A stretch of 28,220 nucleotides of DNA from IMG/VR virus record IMGVR_UViG_3300010430_006854, positions 1 through 28,220 of that record; one strand, given 5' to 3'. The stretch's first letter is position 1; every line of letters starts with the position of its first letter. The DNA is from a virus. Under the pieces are notes generated by a model. That model made no database searches. It was not told the DNA's origin and worked only from the letters and a program-made list of their open reading frames with translations. The translations under genes and the position numbers were made by a program. Below are positions 1,286 to 28,220 of the stretch, one piece after another.

Positions 1286-2663
1286 TTCACCCATAGTAGG
1301 TAATAGAATACCGCCAAATTCTTCTGAGTCAGAAATAGCCGTGCTAGGCGCTATGATGCTTAGCAAAAAAGCAATTGAAAAAGCTGAGCAAATTCTAACT
1401 ACTGATAGCTTCTATCATGAAAAGCATAGATTGATATTTGAAGCTATTCTACAGATGAAGAAAAAAGGTATTGCCGTCGATTTGGTTACTCTTTCTAACT
1501 ATTTGAGTGAGGTCAACAATCTCAAAAAAGTTGGCGGCCGTGCTACAATTGCAAAAATCAACAAAGAAGTTGCTACCTATTCCAATGTTGAGCAATATTC
1601 ACTAATAGTTTCTGAGAAAGAATTCAGACGTGAGCTTATTGGTTTTGGTGGTGATATTATCAATTCAGCTTATGATGAATCCAATGACATCTTATCTGAA
1701 GTAAGCAAAGTAGAATCTGGAATATTCAAGATTTCTGAAAAGAGAATATCTAAAAACTACCTTGATGTTCGTAGAGCTGCTACACAAACTTATCACTATC
1801 TCAAGAAAGTAAAAGAAAGAGCTGAAGCTGGTGTTACTGGTATTTCATCTGGTCTTATTGACCTAGACAAATATACTGGGGGCTTTCAAGATTCTGATTT
1901 AGTCATTATTGCAGCCCGTCCATCTATGGGTAAGACTGCATTGTCTTTGTCATTAGCTTGGAAAATGGCGCACCGCGGTGTCAAAGTCGCTTTCTTTTCT
2001 CTAGAAATGGCATCTAATCAGCTGATACTAAGATTGATTTCACAAATAGCTCAAGTAAATCTACAGAAAATCAGAACTGCAAAGACAACTAATGATGAAG
2101 ACCAAAAGATAATTGATGCTCTTGGTTTGCTAACTGACACTACTATGTTCTTTGACGATTCAGCTATGTTAGAAATAACTGAGCTTCAATCAAAGTGCCG
2201 TAAGCTAAAAGCCGAACATGATATTGATATTATCTTTGTAGACTATTTGCAATTAGTACGCTCTTCAGGTGCCGATACTCGCGAACGTGAAATAGCTGAA
2301 GTATCTATGAGGCTAAAAGCAACTGCAAAAGAATTAGATATACCAGTTATAGCACTAGCTCAACTAAACAGAGCTGTAGAGTCCAGACCAGGTAAAAGCC
2401 GTTCACCTATGCTATCTGATTTACGTGAGTCAGGTTCCATCGAACAAGATGCAGATGTTATAATGTTTGTTCAAAGACGTGAAGTCTACGGACAAACTGA
2501 ATATGAAGATAAAACAAGTACACAAAACACAGCAGAGTTAATAATAGGTAAGCAACGTAATGGCCCTATCGGCACCGTTCGAACTGCTTTCAAAAAGAAC
2601 TTTGCAGAATTTGACAATCTAGGTTATGGTTATGAAGAAATGCCAAACCAAGGTAAATTCTAG
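1275..2663 (+). CDS. dnaB: Replicative DNA helicase DnaB
   Basis: The 462-residue protein is full length for DnaB (about 440-470). The N-terminal helical domain begins at residue 14 (PPNSSESEIAVLGAMM), the primase-interaction half. The RecA-like C-terminal domain has Walker A ARPSMGKTA at 214-222 (Lys220), SLEM after strand 2, Walker B IIFVDYLQLV with Asp323, the conserved QLNRAVE segment, SDLRESGSIEQDADV, and KQRNGP with the arginine finger region. It unwinds DNA at the phage fork as a hexamer. The start is TTG at 1275, overlapping the previous gene by 11 bases. AGGGGG at 1265-1270 is the ribosome site, and the next in-frame ATG (Met27) would cut into the conserved N-terminal domain. A phage-encoded DnaB suggests theta-type replication rather than transposition. 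Confidence 0.95.
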   Translation: MQHNSPIVGNRIPPNSSESEIAVLGAMMLSKKAIEKAEQILTTDSFYHEKHRLIFEAILQMKKKGIAVDLVTLSNYLSEVNNLKKVGGRATIAKINKEVATYSNVEQYSLIVSEKEFRRELIGFGGDIINSAYDESNDILSEVSKVESGIFKISEKRISKNYLDVRRAATQTYHYLKKVKERAEAGVTGISSGLIDLDKYTGGFQDSDLVIIAARPSMGKTALSLSLAWKMAHRGVKVAFFSLEMASNQLILRLISQIAQVNLQKIRTAKTTNDEDQKIIDALGLLTDTTMFFDDSAMLEITELQSKCRKLKAEHDIDIIFVDYLQLVRSSGADTREREIAEVSMRLKATAKELDIPVIALAQLNRAVESRPGKSRSPMLSDLRESGSIEQDADVIMFVQRREVYGQTEYEDKTSTQNTAELIIGKQRNGPIGTVRTAFKKNFAEFDNLGYGYEEMPNQGKF

Positions 2664-2678
2664 AATAGGAAAAACACA

Positions 2679-3044
2679 ATGACTAAAGAAGTAGAGCAGA
2701 TACTTGATGAACTGAAAAATCGACTCAAGCACTATAAATATGAAGAGACGAAATATCAAAACCAATTAATTAAAAAGAAGTTTGATAGTCCTGAAGTACA
2801 CCACAACCTATTAGATGCAATTGCAAGAATCAAAGAGTTAGAAACACTAATTGATATTATTGGATTCGAATATAAGGATGTGTCTGCTAAAGATAATACT
2901 GTTTGCGGTTACATAGAACAAAAAGGTAAAAGGTATTTAATCCCAAATTGTTTTGCTGTTGCAAACTCTAATAATATAAAAGATTGTACTTGTGATAAAA
3001 GTAATGAATTTGAACTAAAAGAAGAGGAAGACAATGAACATTGA
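2679..3044 (+). CDS. Small coiled-coil protein of unknown function
   Basis: A 121-residue protein with an AGGA ribosome site at 2667-2670 ahead of the ATG. Residues 1-60 are predicted helical with heptad-like leucine/isoleucine spacing (coiled coil). The middle reads as beta strands (GYIEQKGKRYLIPN), then NCF and a CTCDK pair of cysteines, and the C-terminus is acidic (KEEEDNEH). It overlaps the next gene by 11 bases, so the two are translationally coupled. It is the first of three small genes after dnaB. I recognise no family. Possible roles include a helicase loader or other accessory replication protein, but only position supports that. Confidence 0.6.
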   Translation: MTKEVEQILDELKNRLKHYKYEETKYQNQLIKKKFDSPEVHHNLLDAIARIKELETLIDIIGFEYKDVSAKDNTVCGYIEQKGKRYLIPNCFAVANSNNIKDCTCDKSNEFELKEEEDNEH

Positions 3045-3300
3045 AATACTATTAAAACAAACTGAAGATGAGCAAAAAGGATATATCTATTGCTCTGTTA
3101 TAAATTGGATAGCAAAGAAAGAAAAGAATATCGAAAGATTAGAAGTCGAAATGGCACTCTGCTTAGAGCATAATTTTATTTACAAATACAGTAAATATCT
3201 TTTGGAATGTGAACAGCGAAGCTTGAAAGAATTAAAGGAATTCAAATCAAAAATAGAAAACGGTGACTTTGACACAGTAAAAGAAGAGACAGTAAAATGA
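3034..3300 (+). CDS. Small helical protein of unknown function
   Basis: An 88-residue, highly charged and almost wholly helical protein with GAGGA at 3023-3027 before its ATG. It starts inside the end of the previous gene and its TGA stop overlaps the next gene's ATG (ATGA at 3297-3300), which shows a coupled three-gene block. No motif is recognised. Two of its three cysteines (residues about 20 and 43) and its aromatic residues lie in predicted helices. It resembles the many short unknown early phage proteins; I assign no function. Confidence 0.55.
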   Translation: MNIEILLKQTEDEQKGYIYCSVINWIAKKEKNIERLEVEMALCLEHNFIYKYSKYLLECEQRSLKELKEFKSKIENGDFDTVKEETVK

Positions 3301-3506
3301 CTAATGAAGACCTAATTATAATGCACAAAGCAGAATCAATTATTGCTAAATATAATGATATAACAAATGATCGTTCAAAAGCTATTAAGTGCGCAATTCT
3401 TGATGTAGAAAGATTTCGAAAAACCCCATCTTACACAAATAGGGTTAGATGCGAACATGTGGATACATTGAAACTTAAGAAATATTTAGAAAGCTTGATT
3501 GAATAA
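3297..3506 (+). CDS. Small protein of unknown function
   Basis: A 69-residue basic protein starting at the ATGA overlap with the previous gene. It contains helices around IIMHKAESIIAKYND and DRSKAIKCAILDVERF and ends in LKKYLESLIE. It is the last gene before the tRNA-like element, only 15 bases upstream of it. No recognised domain. Translational coupling to the two genes before it is the main support that it is real. Confidence 0.5.
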   Translation: MTNEDLIIMHKAESIIAKYNDITNDRSKAIKCAILDVERFRKTPSYTNRVRCEHVDTLKLKKYLESLIE

Positions 3507-3521
3507 CTTTATTTAACAAAA

Positions 3522-3638
3522 GCCGAGTATGCAAATGGATTGCTATTGAAGCGGTTATACAGAGATGTAAGCACACCGCAATTCTGAAATGAATCTTTAA
3601 ATACAGAAAGCTCGTTGGTTCGATTCCAACACTCGGCA
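3522..3638 (+). tRNA. tRNA-like RNA with oversized anticodon/variable region (anticodon not assignable)
   Basis: The ends are classic tRNA: acceptor strands GCCGAGT (3522-3528) and ACTCGGC (3631-3637) pair over 7 bp with discriminator A3638. The T arm is GTTGG-TTCGATT-CCAAC (3614-3630), perfectly paired. A short D arm GCAA-ATGGA-TTGC (3531-3543) keeps the A14/GG/A21 features. Between D and T arms there are 70 bases instead of the usual 23-40. They can form ATTG/CAAT (3545-3548 with 3579-3582) enclosing GCGGT/ACCGC (3551-3555 with 3575-3579; the two share a base, so not both fully), and a TTCTG/CAGAA stem (3582-3586 with 3604-3608). The total is 117 bases. No 7-base anticodon loop is evident and CCA is not encoded. 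It may be a divergent class II phage tRNA, a tRNA with an insert, a decayed tRNA or a tRNA mimic. The antisense frame reads VGIEPTS, the usual signature of a T arm. Confidence 0.5.
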
Positions 3639-3707
3639 CTAAAATTTTATTTAACAATTTTTTTATTATATTACAATAACACTTTAACCAACATAGGAGA
3701 CGTAGAA

Positions 3708-4157
3708 ATGACAGAACAAACGAATATAGAAAAACAAGAATGGAAACCTTGGCACAAAGTTACTATAACAATTTTGTCAGTATTGACAGTGGGTATTTTC
3801 CTAATAACATTGATATTTGGAGATGACCCAAGAGAAGTAACTTATACAATAGAAAATGAAGGTGAATTTGGCATAGCCGCCGAGCCTGGATATAAATTCG
3901 CTATGGTGCTTGATGACCATACAAAATACTCTATGTTAGATTTACGATATGCAGCAGCTGAAGCAATTAAAGATGTAGAAGATGGGTATATTTATAAAAA
4001 GTTCACCGTGTTCATTGATGATCCAGATGAAAAGTTTTTAATGCCAGCGCTATTCAGATTTGATACAGATGATAGTCAAAGTAGAGTTGATCACAATAGC
4101 TTTACAATTGATACAATCCACGGCAATAATGAACCAGTTAAACTAAGAGAAGATTAA
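3708..4157 (+). CDS. Single-span membrane protein of unknown function
   Basis: I place the start at ATG 3708, preceded by AGGAG at 3695-3699. An upstream in-frame ATG at 3615 lies inside the tRNA-like element and is rejected. The 149-residue protein has a short hydrophilic N-terminus, one membrane span at about residues 18-38 (VTITILSVLTVGIFLITLIF), and a soluble C-terminal domain of about 110 residues rich in Asp/Glu and aromatic residues. No lipobox or signal peptidase site is clear, so it is probably an N-in, C-out anchored protein. It is followed by an intrinsic terminator, so it ends the left operon. Single-gene membrane proteins in such positions can be superinfection-exclusion factors, but that is only inference. 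Confidence 0.6.
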   Translation: MTEQTNIEKQEWKPWHKVTITILSVLTVGIFLITLIFGDDPREVTYTIENEGEFGIAAEPGYKFAMVLDDHTKYSMLDLRYAAAEAIKDVEDGYIYKKFTVFIDDPDEKFLMPALFRFDTDDSQSRVDHNSFTIDTIHGNNEPVKLRED

Positions 4158-4246: not shown

Positions 4247-5296
4247 TTGAAAATAAGTAACCAATGGAAATTAATAATGAAACAATATCAACGTAAAGAA
4301 CTAATAGAACAAATAAGAGGGTTATTTATTGATTTTGACAGTTATGATATCGAAATGTTAATTGGAAGTGATAGACTCGGAAAGTTTGATGGCTTTCAAT
4401 CTAAAGAATCTGAGTTCATAGGAATTGAAAAGTTAGTAAATATTGTGAAAAATTTAAATTTGAATATGTTGCCTTTACCTTTACTTCATGAACTAAAAGA
4501 TAATTTACAAGAAGTTAATATAACGTACAATAATATTCGAAGTTTTTCATATAAGGCTAAGGATCCAGTAACATTGAAAGCTATCTTAAATCAAGAAATT
4601 GAGAAAGTGTATAGTGATTTAAATGATTTAACTGTGAAATGCTCTTTGTTCAGATATAATGAAATTGATTCCTTAGAATCAAAGATTGATTCTAGCCTTT
4701 CGATACTTAGTATAGCAAAGAAAGAAGCAAAAGACTCTTTAGAGAGAATAATTCAAATGCAATCATCTGTGGAGAAAGCTACTAAAGAAACGGGGGTCTC
4801 TACACATAGTACCGAGTTCAAAAATCTTGCTAATAGTTTTAAATATAAAAGTTGGGTTTGGCTCATTTTCTTAATGCTTTTCGTTGTTAGTACATTGTTA
4901 TTCATGTATTATTCACCTATAATTGTAAATGATTATTCATCAAAGTTAATCCAATTACCAGATACAGCTACAGCTGACCAATTATTCTATTATCAATTCC
5001 TACCAGCAATATTTTTAAAAATTTCAATTTTTGCTATATTACTTTACATTATAAACATTTGCAAAAACAATTTTTATGTTTCAAGGCATAATAAGATAAT
5101 TAATGACCATAAAGCAGCTTCTTTAGCAACTTTTAAAACTTTTACTACATCGACTCAAGATGAAAAGACGAAAGATGCTATATTGTTAGAAGCAACAAAA
5201 ACAATATTCGATCATCAAAGAACTGGTTTTTTAAAAAATGAACCAGAGTCAAATGATAATACATTTATTGAAGTGATTAAAAACATTAAAAAATAA
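4247..5296 (+). CDS. Two-span membrane protein with coiled coil; candidate phage-borne accessory (moron) protein
   Basis: A 349-residue protein. Residues 15-130 are helical, 140-185 look like coiled coil, membrane spans lie at about 203-223 and 252-271, and a conserved-looking cytoplasmic tail follows (RHNKIINDHKA, SLATFKTF, ILLEATKTIFDHQRTGF). A tail of this type, with a histidine/asparagine start and an FxxxxTGF end, is one I associate with accessory and defence-region membrane proteins, but I cannot name the family. TTG 4247 is the longest start; ATG 4277 (Met11) is equally possible, and neither has a strong ribosome site. It follows a terminator by 7 bases, so it needs its own promoter or read-through. 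It is more AT-rich than the structural genes. It pairs with the next gene and lies outside both structural operons. Function unknown. Confidence 0.65.
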   Translation: MKISNQWKLIMKQYQRKELIEQIRGLFIDFDSYDIEMLIGSDRLGKFDGFQSKESEFIGIEKLVNIVKNLNLNMLPLPLLHELKDNLQEVNITYNNIRSFSYKAKDPVTLKAILNQEIEKVYSDLNDLTVKCSLFRYNEIDSLESKIDSSLSILSIAKKEAKDSLERIIQMQSSVEKATKETGVSTHSTEFKNLANSFKYKSWVWLIFLMLFVVSTLLFMYYSPIIVNDYSSKLIQLPDTATADQLFYYQFLPAIFLKISIFAILLYIINICKNNFYVSRHNKIINDHKAASLATFKTFTTSTQDEKTKDAILLEATKTIFDHQRTGFLKNEPESNDNTFIEVIKNIKK

Positions 5297-25483: not shown

Positions 25484-25625
25484 ACCCGAAATGAGTTGAA
25501 AAAGAATAGAGAAATGGGTAAGTTGTTCCCACATTAAAAACACAAAATAAATTAAAATATTCCCAGATTAAGCGACATTAATGTGAGAAAAACGACGTAC
25601 TATAATATGGGAATATATAGTAGCC
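25484..25625. repeat. Phage right-end region with four copies of a 12-bp motif
   Basis: Copies: TTCCCACATTAA (25526-25537, plus), TTCCCAGATTAA (25560-25571, plus), TTCTCACATTAA (25578-25589, minus) and TTCCCATATTAT (25602-25613, minus). All fit TTCyCAnATTAw. The two on each strand point towards the middle, with spacings of 34 bases (plus pair) and 24 bases (minus pair). The fourth copy ends about 10 bases from the point where HsdR identity is lost. Arm-type recombinase sites or terminal transposase sites both fit. Confidence 0.6.
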
Positions 25626-26870
25626 CTTTAAAAACTCTGTTATTTTCTTAGCTACAATTTTTCTTCGCTCTTCTACCACTATGTTTTTATCAAAATCAGT
25701 TCTGTTATAAATCCGATCTTCGACTGGGTTGCCGTCCTTATCTAAAAATCCTTTCGGAGGTCGCCAACCTTCAGCATCGATATCTAATGTTACGTTAACT
25801 ACTTTATAAGGTGCAAGAAAGCCATCATCAATACCTTGTTTTAAGGAATATGTATAGATTGGATCACCGAAATAATCTATATTAGAAACCTCTTTAGTTT
25901 CTTTCGGAGTAGCAGTTAATCCGATGTGAGTAGCTTTGTCAAAATATGCTAATATTTCACGCCATTTACTGTCCTCTTTTGCACTTCCTCTATGACACTC
26001 ATCTATTATTATTAAATCAAAAAAGTCTCTGCTAAATTGCTTGTAAGCATCTTCTGACTTGCTATCTGATAATCCTTGATATAGTGCTAAGTATATGTTA
26101 TATGCTTTGTCAATTTGTTTATTTTTAATAATAGTCATTGCCTCTTTGAAAGGGGCAAAATCTTTTCTGTAAGTTTGGTTAATTAATGCGGTTCTATCGG
26201 CTAAGAAAAGTATTCTCTTTTTAGTTCCACTTTTCCATAATCTCCAAATAATATGAAAAGCAGTATATGTTTTTCCGCAACCAGTAGCCATTACAAGTAG
26301 TATCCTGTCTTGTTTATTCGCTACTGCTTCAATAGTTCTATTAATTGCTATTTGTTGATAGTATCTAGGAGCTTTACCAGAGTTGTCTATATAATAATCT
26401 TGTTTAGCTACCTCTTCTACAGATTCTTCCTTTATTCCTTTGTAAAGCTTATACTTTTCCCAAAGGTATTCGGGGTCAGGAAATTCATCCATTGATATTT
26501 CTTTCTCAATTTCCCCATCGGTTGCTGTTTTGTCATGGAAGTAGAATCCATCACCGTTGCTACTAAAAACACAAGGAATATCTAATGTGTTTGAATAATC
26601 AAGAGCTTGTTGAATACCACTTCTTACTGAATGTTTATTGTCTTTGGCTTCAATTATTGCTATAGGTACATTAGGTTTGTAGTAAAGTATATAATCAGCA
26701 AATTTTTTCTTACCTCTTGAAGTCATCTTCCCTTTTACATAGATTCTACCAGCTGTAAAGGAGATCTCTCGTCCAATCTGGGTTTGTTCATCCCATCCTG
26801 CTTTTAAAACAGCAGGAGTGATAAATTTAGCTTTGATATCAGCTTCTGACAATTGTTTTTTACTAATCAT
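25578..26870 (-). pseudogene. hsdR: Truncated type I restriction endonuclease subunit R (HsdR)
   Basis: A 430-residue N-terminal part, translated from 26870 leftwards. The nuclease domain has KFADYIL with Asp59 and IIEAK (Glu74, Lys76), the PD-(D/E)XK core. The helicase half has MATGCGKT (194-201, motif I), [10 protein letters not shown] (motif Ia), IIIDECHRG (DECH 290-293, motif II) and GLTATP (motif III, near 317-322). The domain stops at FLKG (about 416), just where motifs IV-VI and the HsdM-binding C-terminus should follow; intact members are usually 750 to over 1000 residues. The final 14 residues ([14 protein letters not shown]) are read from the non-hsdR side. The gene is therefore broken at about 25615-25625. 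It should lack restriction activity, although a stable nuclease fragment cannot be excluded. Confidence 0.85.
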
Positions 26871-27083: not shown

Positions 27084-28220
27084 CTACCCCCTCTTTAGAC
27101 CTTCCATTGACTTCCGAACTCTATCGTTATCATACGCTCGATATGCTTTGAGTGTAACATCAATTGATGAATGTCTCATCACATCTTTTATAACATCAAA
27201 TGGGACATCATTTTTAAATAATTCAGTAGCTAACAGTCTTCTAAATCCATGAGTAGATCTACCTTTTTTCTTTATGCCCAATGCTACTTCAATTCTATTG
27301 AGCTTTTTGTTTATCAGCCCTTTGTTATTAGAGTTATATGGTACTACTTTACCTTCATAATTAGGGTCTTTCTCCCCAATCTCTTTTAATCTTCTTAATA
27401 CCAACTCTAGTTCTGGGAAAATTGGAATAGTTTGAAATAGATCACGTCTTATCTTGTTTCTAAATCTAATTGTTAAGTTATCTAAGTCAACGCTATAAGG
27501 TGGTTTGTTAAAATAAGCATTTAACCATTCACCTAAACGACCACCTGTTAAGTAATATAGCTTTATCAAAAGGTAGAAAACTTCATCAGTTTCCTTTGCA
27601 TAATTTAAAATCAAATTGGCCTCTTCTGAAGAATAGCTAACAACTTCTTTTGGTATAATTTTTCTTTTGTGTTTCTTATAAAGGTTTACAGCTTTTATTA
27701 ATCCATTTTCAGATAAGAAGTTAATAAATAGTTGAAATTGCCTTAAGTGTTTGTTAATAGTATTGTTGTTGTGTTTCGTTCGACTCAAATATTCTTTAAT
27801 CTGTTTTTCTAATTTGTAAATTTGGTTTTTTCTGCCTTTCTCATAAGTAAATACTAATTCATCAACATCGAATTCCTTTGAAATTATATGGTTATATGAT
27901 AATTCATATTCATACACAGTTTGATCTGACAACTTCCTATCTCGACATATTTCAAGAAATTCTTCTAATAGTAAATATACATTTTTTTCTTGTCTTTGAT
28001 TACCCTCATCATCCATTAGTTTTTTGTTAATTAGATACTCTTTATACTTATGTTCTAGAATACCTTCCGCAACTTTCAAATTTTTCTTTGTAAAAGATAG
28101 TCCTAAAGCTTTGTGATTACCTTTACTTCCATAAGGTTTAATATATAGGTATTCCTCTCCTTTTTTGGTTTCTCTAACTAATATTGTACCTGGTATTTTT
28201 GTTTTAATTGCTCTAGCCAT
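27084..28220 (-). CDS. Tyrosine recombinase / integrase
   Basis: A 378-residue protein on the minus strand with ATG at the very last bases of the window, so a longer N-terminus is possible. It has an N-terminal arm-binding-like domain (residues 1-60, KGEEYLYIKPYGSKGNHKALGL), a SAM-like core-binding domain (about 80-180), and the catalytic domain with Arg228 (LTGGRLGEW), Lys in a beta hairpin near 256, His324-x-x-Arg327 (THGFRRLLAT), His350 (MRHSSIDVT) and Tyr360 (or 363) as nucleophile. Complete and apparently active. The arm-binding domain suggests an integrase that uses arm sites. It lies just upstream of the HsdR fragment and reads in the same direction; it may be the phage integrase or a recombinase of the restriction locus. 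Confidence 0.9.
   Translation of the reverse strand: MARAIKTKIPGTILVRETKKGEEYLYIKPYGSKGNHKALGLSFTKKNLKVAEGILEHKYKEYLINKKLMDDEGNQRQEKNVYLLLEEFLEICRDRKLSDQTVYEYELSYNHIISKEFDVDELVFTYEKGRKNQIYKLEKQIKEYLSRTKHNNNTINKHLRQFQLFINFLSENGLIKAVNLYKKHKRKIIPKEVVSYSSEEANLILNYAKETDEVFYLLIKLYYLTGGRLGEWLNAYFNKPPYSVDLDNLTIRFRNKIRRDLFQTIPIFPELELVLRRLKEIGEKDPNYEGKVVPYNSNNKGLINKKLNRIEVALGIKKKGRSTHGFRRLLATELFKNDVPFDVIKDVMRHSSIDVTLKAYRAYDNDRVRKSMEGLKRG

Follow-up and report, generated by a model that had tools for sequence, protein, structure and literature searches.

The window analysed here is a stretch of 28,220 nucleotides that corresponds to positions 1 to 28,220 of the virus record IMGVR_UViG_3300010430_006854. 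Within a run of co-directional genes that includes dnaB, it carries a tRNA-like RNA element, whose features and surroundings are the following (L002 is a related contig; L008 and L010 are unrelated virus records).

3297 to 3506, plus strand: upstream gene encoding 69 amino acids, from the list of open reading frames, with a stop codon 15 bases ahead of the element
3522 to 3639, plus strand: whole tRNA-like RNA of 118 bases, running from the acceptor stem through the discriminator A3638, plus C3639; delimited by folding, conservation in L002 and a generic finder of acceptor and T arms
3522 to 3528, plus strand: 5′ strand of the acceptor stem, GCCGAGU, with 7/7 Watson-Crick pairs to 3631 to 3637
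3531 to 3543, plus strand: D arm, GCAA-AUGGA-UUGC, from the sequence; the same D-arm plan is seen in L008 and L010
3551 to 3579, plus strand: second arm, GCGGU (3551 to 3555) with ACCGC (3575 to 3579), enclosing the inner hairpin UACA-GAGA-UGUA (3558 to 3569); from pair probabilities; replaces the anticodon arm
3582 to 3608, plus strand: third arm, UUCUG/CAGAA with a 17-base loop, in the place of the variable arm; from the minimum free energy (MFE) structure and pair probability
3614 to 3630, plus strand: T arm, GUUGG-UUCGAUU-CCAAC; from its canonical sequence and pair probability
3631 to 3638, plus strand: 3′ strand of the acceptor stem, ACUCGGC, and discriminator A, from the sequence
3708 to 4157, plus strand: downstream gene, from the list of open reading frames and alignment; a different, replacement gene stands here in L002
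4217 to 4240, plus strand: candidate intrinsic terminator (hairpin and T run) from a consensus scan, which would end the operon

The 3′ end can be shifted by one base, as the block shared with L002 reaches 3639 (GGCAC). A 12-base direct repeat, TTTATTTAACAA, stands at 3508 to 3519 and again at 3646 to 3657; it was rejected as a part of the element, its downstream copy not being kept in L002.

The original prediction had described a perfect acceptor stem and T arm, a plausible D arm and a gap of 70 bases between D and T arms with no anticodon loop, and all of these were found in the sequence and by folding. We thus confirmed that positions 3522 to 3638 are a tRNA-like RNA with intact ends and elbow, a replaced core and no anticodon loop. 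Indeed, the acceptor stem (GCCGAGT/ACTCGGC) consists of seven Watson-Crick pairs and is stacked without a gap on the T arm (GTTGG-TTCGATT-CCAAC), which has 5/5 Watson-Crick pairs and a loop, TTCGATT, that fits the TTCRANN consensus. The D arm has four pairs and its loop is shrunk to five bases, A-U-G-G-A, in which the GG is retained; in real tRNAs, the corresponding guanines dock into the T loop. Exactly 70 bases (3544 to 3613) separate the D arm from the T arm. The extra stems expected there were recovered by folding and pair probabilities as two arms, one of them with an inner hairpin. While an anticodon arm is a 5-bp stem closed by a 7-base loop, the second arm of the element is a 5-bp stem around a 19-base interior that contains its own hairpin, and no 7-base anticodon loop was found when 3522 to 3638 was folded. 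Moreover, position 8 is an A where tRNA has U8, and CCA is absent from the DNA, ACUA coming after the stem.

The predicted fold is well defined at its ends and in the second arm, with mean pair probabilities of 0.98 for both the acceptor stem and the T arm, 0.95 for the second arm and 0.93 for its inner hairpin, against 0.64 for the D arm and 0.59 for the third arm. Its MFE is −31.3 kcal/mol (z = −2.4), and one of 200 shuffled sequences folds equally well. A generic finder that asks for a T arm and a 7-bp acceptor stem separated by a gap of 8 to 140, with any core, criteria looser than those the element itself satisfies, gave 21 matches in 1500 shuffles of the window, that is 0.014 per window. 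Beyond what this finder demands, the element has stems that are all Watson-Crick and a D loop with GG. The predicted fold also holds the structural prerequisites of RNase P, namely G1-C72 and the stacked acceptor/T helix.

The element escapes the standard detectors of tRNA. ARAGORN called no tRNA or tmRNA gene in the window, and Rfam gave no relevant match there, with none for tmRNA, GOLLD or ROOL. The tRNA model RF00005 had no match on the window record at E <= 0.001; on the copies in L002 and in a second related contig, L003, it scored 12.5 bits over the T arm only, for a cut-off of 29 bits. Among the marks of a tRNA, the acceptor/T helix and the GG of the D arm are present; the anticodon arm, U8 and a passing covariance score are absent. 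Likewise, neither a tag reading frame nor a match to the tmRNA model (RF00023) was detected in the window.

Nonetheless, the order of the arms (D, second, third, T) is class II-like, and this is the part of an earlier suggestion of a divergent class II tRNA that stands, while the missing anticodon loop and the restriction of the RF00005 match to the T arm speak against it. It was also suggested that the element carries a small insert that is removed. In intron mode ARAGORN reported nothing at the element at its normal threshold; at a lowered threshold it read a His tRNA with an intron at 38 in the window and a Tyr tRNA with an intron at 27 in the near-identical L002 copy. These two readings are incompatible and give no support to a removable insert. 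Altogether, a working tRNA, either with a small removable insert or as an extreme class II form, would explain the arm order and the low-threshold call, but it is made very improbable by this His/Tyr discordance, by the silence of every ARAGORN mode at normal threshold and by the low RF00005 score.

In scans of virus contigs, only L002 and L003, which are contigs of one metagenome, carry copies of the element. L003 is near-identical to the window over 9.4 kb, whereas L002 is a distinct relative whose aligned blocks show 80-90% DNA identity. Between the window and L002, 116 of the 118 bases of the element are the same, as are 21 of the 22 bases just upstream, while the preceding gene (3297 to 3499) is 74% identical and the following segment (3640 to 3705) 48%. 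One of the two changes turns the GAGA tetraloop into GAAA (G to A), thereby keeping a GNRA-type loop, and the other (T to A at 3597) falls in the loop of the third arm. The 70-base core is kept as well as the ends. At a divergence of 10%, the probability of two changes or fewer in 118 bases is 4e-4. However, conservation around the element appears patchy, as the gene at 3033 to 3296, two steps upstream, is 95% identical, and in this comparison of a single pair a recent exchange between the window phage and L002 could mimic conservation of the element. Just two distinct sequences of the element occur in the collections, too few for covariation.

The element is absent from L173, a more remote relative whose terminase, portal and DnaB proteins are 54-62% identical (54% for the terminase) and where other small genes stand in its place; it is thus an accessory feature. 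An 88-aa protein encoded at 3034 to 3300 of the window is 90% identical in L173, against 54-62% for DnaB, terminase and portal, which may reflect unusually strong conservation or a recent transfer.

These comparisons bear on whether the locus is a decaying tRNA gene, its middle scrambled by insertions and deletions, as had been envisaged. An accessory element could be such a remnant, and some small tRNA-like RNAs of streptococcal phages, described below, do resemble internal deletions of a fuller tRNA. Decay should however also damage the acceptor and T stems, in which all 12 pairs are perfect, and it is disfavoured because L002 retains 116 of the 118 bases despite diverging neighbours (one pair compared). 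We therefore regard it as improbable.

Bacteroidota genomes contain terminase relatives with identities of about 25-36%, a hint that Bacteroidota may be the host phylum. Among isolated phages, one distant partial match was found for the terminase and none for the portal, and the exact D-arm string was found in no bacterial genome. At the other end of the window, an integrase gene (27084 to 28220) starts exactly at position 28220; the record has therefore probably been truncated at this point and may not be complete. Adjoining it, a reading frame of 430 aa (25578 to 26870) encodes an apparently truncated HsdR-like protein (type I restriction R subunit).

tRNA genes are frequent integration sites of phages, which leave tRNA fragments (PMC9897764), and the presence of an integrase gene raises the possibility that the element is an attP derived from part of a host tRNA gene. 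Such fragments nonetheless carry one end only, whereas the element has a matched 5′ acceptor strand and a D arm. Moreover, its 25-base T arm and acceptor end had no copy with up to two mismatches in 394 genomes of Bacteroidota, the presumed host phylum, and the integrase gene lies at the opposite end of the window, about 3.5 kb away even on a circular map. An attachment-site origin is thus very unlikely.

Outside this group, BLAST led us to streptococcal phages that carry a tRNA-like RNA of about 100-125 bases between the late-regulator and terminase small-subunit genes in most of the annotated records that were read. Over its 11 distinct sequences, 98.6% of cells are paired, and changes on both sides are observed in all four helices, namely the acceptor stem, the D arm, a small arm replacing the anticodon arm and the T arm. 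The covariation score of this family is 0.253, against 0.148 for shuffles, of which none in 500 reached the observed value, and 0.068 or less with the partners slid. Like the element, these RNAs combine an acceptor stem, a GG-bearing D arm, a second arm that is not an anticodon arm, a variable third region and a T arm, and receive no ARAGORN call. They differ by a long D loop and by a second arm that is a 3-4 bp hairpin with a UAGCG loop. The model built on the family (R1) scores the element at 16.8 bits (E = 0.046) and its own members at about 108 bits: the plan is shared, the family is not. In two of the phages (L099 and L096), the tRNA-like RNA begins two bases after a normal tRNA, an arrangement that resembles the layout of a dimeric tRNA precursor.

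Mini tRNA-likes of 41-46 bases were also seen (L013, 1480 to 1524; L016, 1482 to 1524 and 1807 to 1847; L086, 11274 to 11315). They are composed of an acceptor stem, a linker of 10-14 bases containing GG and a T arm, and the first kind recurs in many streptococcal phage late leaders. Some of the streptococcal minis resemble a fuller tRNA of the same site that has lost its interior (L172 compared with L013). At one site, phage LF2 has a fuller tRNA, so that at least some of these RNAs seem to have arisen by internal change of real tRNAs, with the ends and the T arm kept. In some of the streptococcal phage leaders, a GOLLD RNA lies amid tRNAs and tRNA-likes (L013, 1840 to 2215; L097, 642 to 1026; L099, 1035 to 1410), and the tRNAs or tRNA-likes might set the ends of GOLLD.

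That streptococcal phages conserve minis in which just 10-15 bases link acceptor stem and T arm would be expected of a cis-acting processing mark, whose acceptor/T-arm helix serves only to have the operon transcript cut between genes by RNase P and 3′ trimming, the excised RNA being inert. The position of the element between co-directional genes would suit such a role. The 70-base core would however be superfluous for cutting, yet it is conserved like the ends between the window and L002, and a mere processing mark seems rather unlikely to us.

We also searched for the element's plan with a D-arm pattern (GC..ATGGA..GC) followed by a gap of 60-88 bases and a T arm, leaving the acceptor free, in virus contigs and in one genome per species for 84,980 prokaryote species. 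This gave 59 distinct matches, of which about 50 are bacterial and correspond to ordinary tRNAs or to chance. A complete D stem along with an acceptor stem in which 6-7 of 7 positions pair was found in virus records only, in three unrelated lineages (the window group, L008 and L010); no bacterial match combined the two. L012, L107, L109 and L112 were rejected as tRNA-likes, as the pattern there fits an ordinary tRNA or a pair of tRNAs. Run on about 1.1 Mb of bacterial DNA, the generic finder gave 46 matches, all at tRNAs called by ARAGORN and none elsewhere. In phages, the same finder revealed further tRNA-likes that have no ARAGORN call and whose gap from acceptor to T stem ranges from 10 to 119, instead of the usual value of about 41; the virus sample was picked via tRNA-like patterns, and their occurrence in phages is not a measured frequency. 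These data support reading the locus as a tRNA-like RNA whose core has been replaced, and place the element within a wider phage phenomenon.

Within about 3 kb, L010 (IMGVR_UViG_3300044785_000009) bears no fewer than four aberrant tRNA-likes (1692 to 1802, 2243 to 2381, 3724 to 3835 and 4275 to 4336), three of which were identified by the generic finder and the fourth by the R1 model. Its 54.8 kb hold no ordinary tRNA gene, ARAGORN giving a single odd tRNA-??? call. The tRNA-like at 2243 to 2381 (minus strand), which has an RF00005 score of 42.7 bits, combines a normal D arm with a large insert replacing the anticodon arm; it overlaps the start codon of a 147-aa reading frame (1887 to 2330), so that RNA fold and gene start coincide. 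A shortened form with a gap of 35, in which the D arm is normal but the short anticodon stem bears a 10-base loop, recurs in four virus contigs, L103, L105, L106 and L110 (for example L105, 9008 to 9073).

The recurrence of tRNA-likes in unrelated phages could point to decoys or mimics of a tRNA-directed host factor, such as a CCA- or acceptor-directed toxin, EF-Tu, a modification enzyme or a tRNA nuclease, that cannot be inactivated at the anticodon. In the element, the acceptor stem, T arm and D-loop GG that such factors read are intact and the anticodon is gone. On the other hand, no defence or tRNA-nuclease partner gene was identified adjoining the element, and an RNA that lacks an anticodon arm would not titrate anticodon nucleases; we consider a decoy unlikely.

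Taken together, these data lead us to favour, with a probability of roughly 0.55, the proposal that the element is a small stable phage RNA, derived from tRNA but non-decoding, which the host enzymes that process tRNA ends excise from an operon transcript and whose core is the functional part. We infer its transcription, processing, stability and any target from the DNA. The element would be co-transcribed with the dnaB-led operon, and its intact acceptor/T/D elbow would be read at 3522 by host RNase P and at 3638 by RNase Z or exonucleases and by the CCA-adding enzyme. The product would be a stable RNA of some 117-121 bases, to which CCA has been added. Such RNAs have in common a stacked 12-bp acceptor/T helix with its T loop and, usually, a D-loop GG, and the stacked helix and T loop are what tRNA end-processing enzymes read; it is on this basis that excision by host RNase P and 3′-end enzymes would be expected. 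While the elbow would provide processing and stability, the two arms that replace the anticodon arm would be the working part, acting on a protein or RNA partner, with a tRNA-reading host factor or a defence protein as the natural first candidate.

More broadly, and at somewhat less than even odds, phages of many bacterial groups may carry an unrecognised class of tRNA-scaffolded non-decoding RNAs, in which the elbow and ends would be kept for cutting, capping and stabilising by the host, and the anticodon arm would be swapped for lineage-specific arms acting in infection, for example by sequestering a tRNA-reading host factor. Our search of the literature on phage tRNA-like RNAs, pseudo-tRNAs and decoys found no description of such a class. 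Counts of phage tRNA genes rest on programs that require an anticodon arm, and RNAs shaped like the element are consequently overlooked, while a simple search for acceptor stem and T arm picks them up in several unrelated phages. If they are made and processed, they would be a natural counterpart of the engineered tRNA scaffold, would give the RNAC of phage T4 relatives in kind for comparison, and would provide a defined set of RNAs whose partners could be sought among RNase P, the CCA enzyme, EF-Tu and tRNA-directed defence proteins.

Among known RNAs, the tRNA-like domain of tmRNA also associates an acceptor stem and a T arm with no anticodon arm; the element differs by having no tag reading frame and about one third of the length. 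C4 acts through complementarity to its own operon, whereas the longest complement to the element elsewhere in the phage, in a search for antisense targets, is 11 bases, which we treated as chance. C4, the antisense RNA of P1 and P7, and the M3 RNA of phi80 are phage RNAs other than tRNAs that are processed by RNase P (PMC11143913). For one T4 tRNA precursor, a non-encoded CCA end is preferred in efficient processing (PMC11143913). GOLLD and ROOL are large structured phage RNAs found near tRNA islands (PMC12286853), and are far larger than the element.

The closest parallel is T4 RNAC (species 1 RNA), a stable phage RNA that has been seen on Northern blots and whose function is unknown (PMC9697503, PMC3014915). 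The 3′ end of its 139 bases is a canonical T arm and acceptor strand, which pairs with an upstream 7-mer. RNAC thus shares with the element a T arm and a paired acceptor, a long arm adjoining the T arm and the lack of a standard anticodon arm at normal search thresholds. It differs by the absence of any visible sequence relation past the T arm, by a longer 5′ part, by its location in the T4 tRNA cluster beside RNAD and by an acceptor 5′ half that is internal in this reading. By its T arm and paired acceptor in the absence of an ordinary anticodon arm, the element would be RNAC-like in kind. What is new here is that phage tRNA-likes similar to T4 RNAC, a poorly known kind, recur in unrelated phages and escape the standard tRNA finders.
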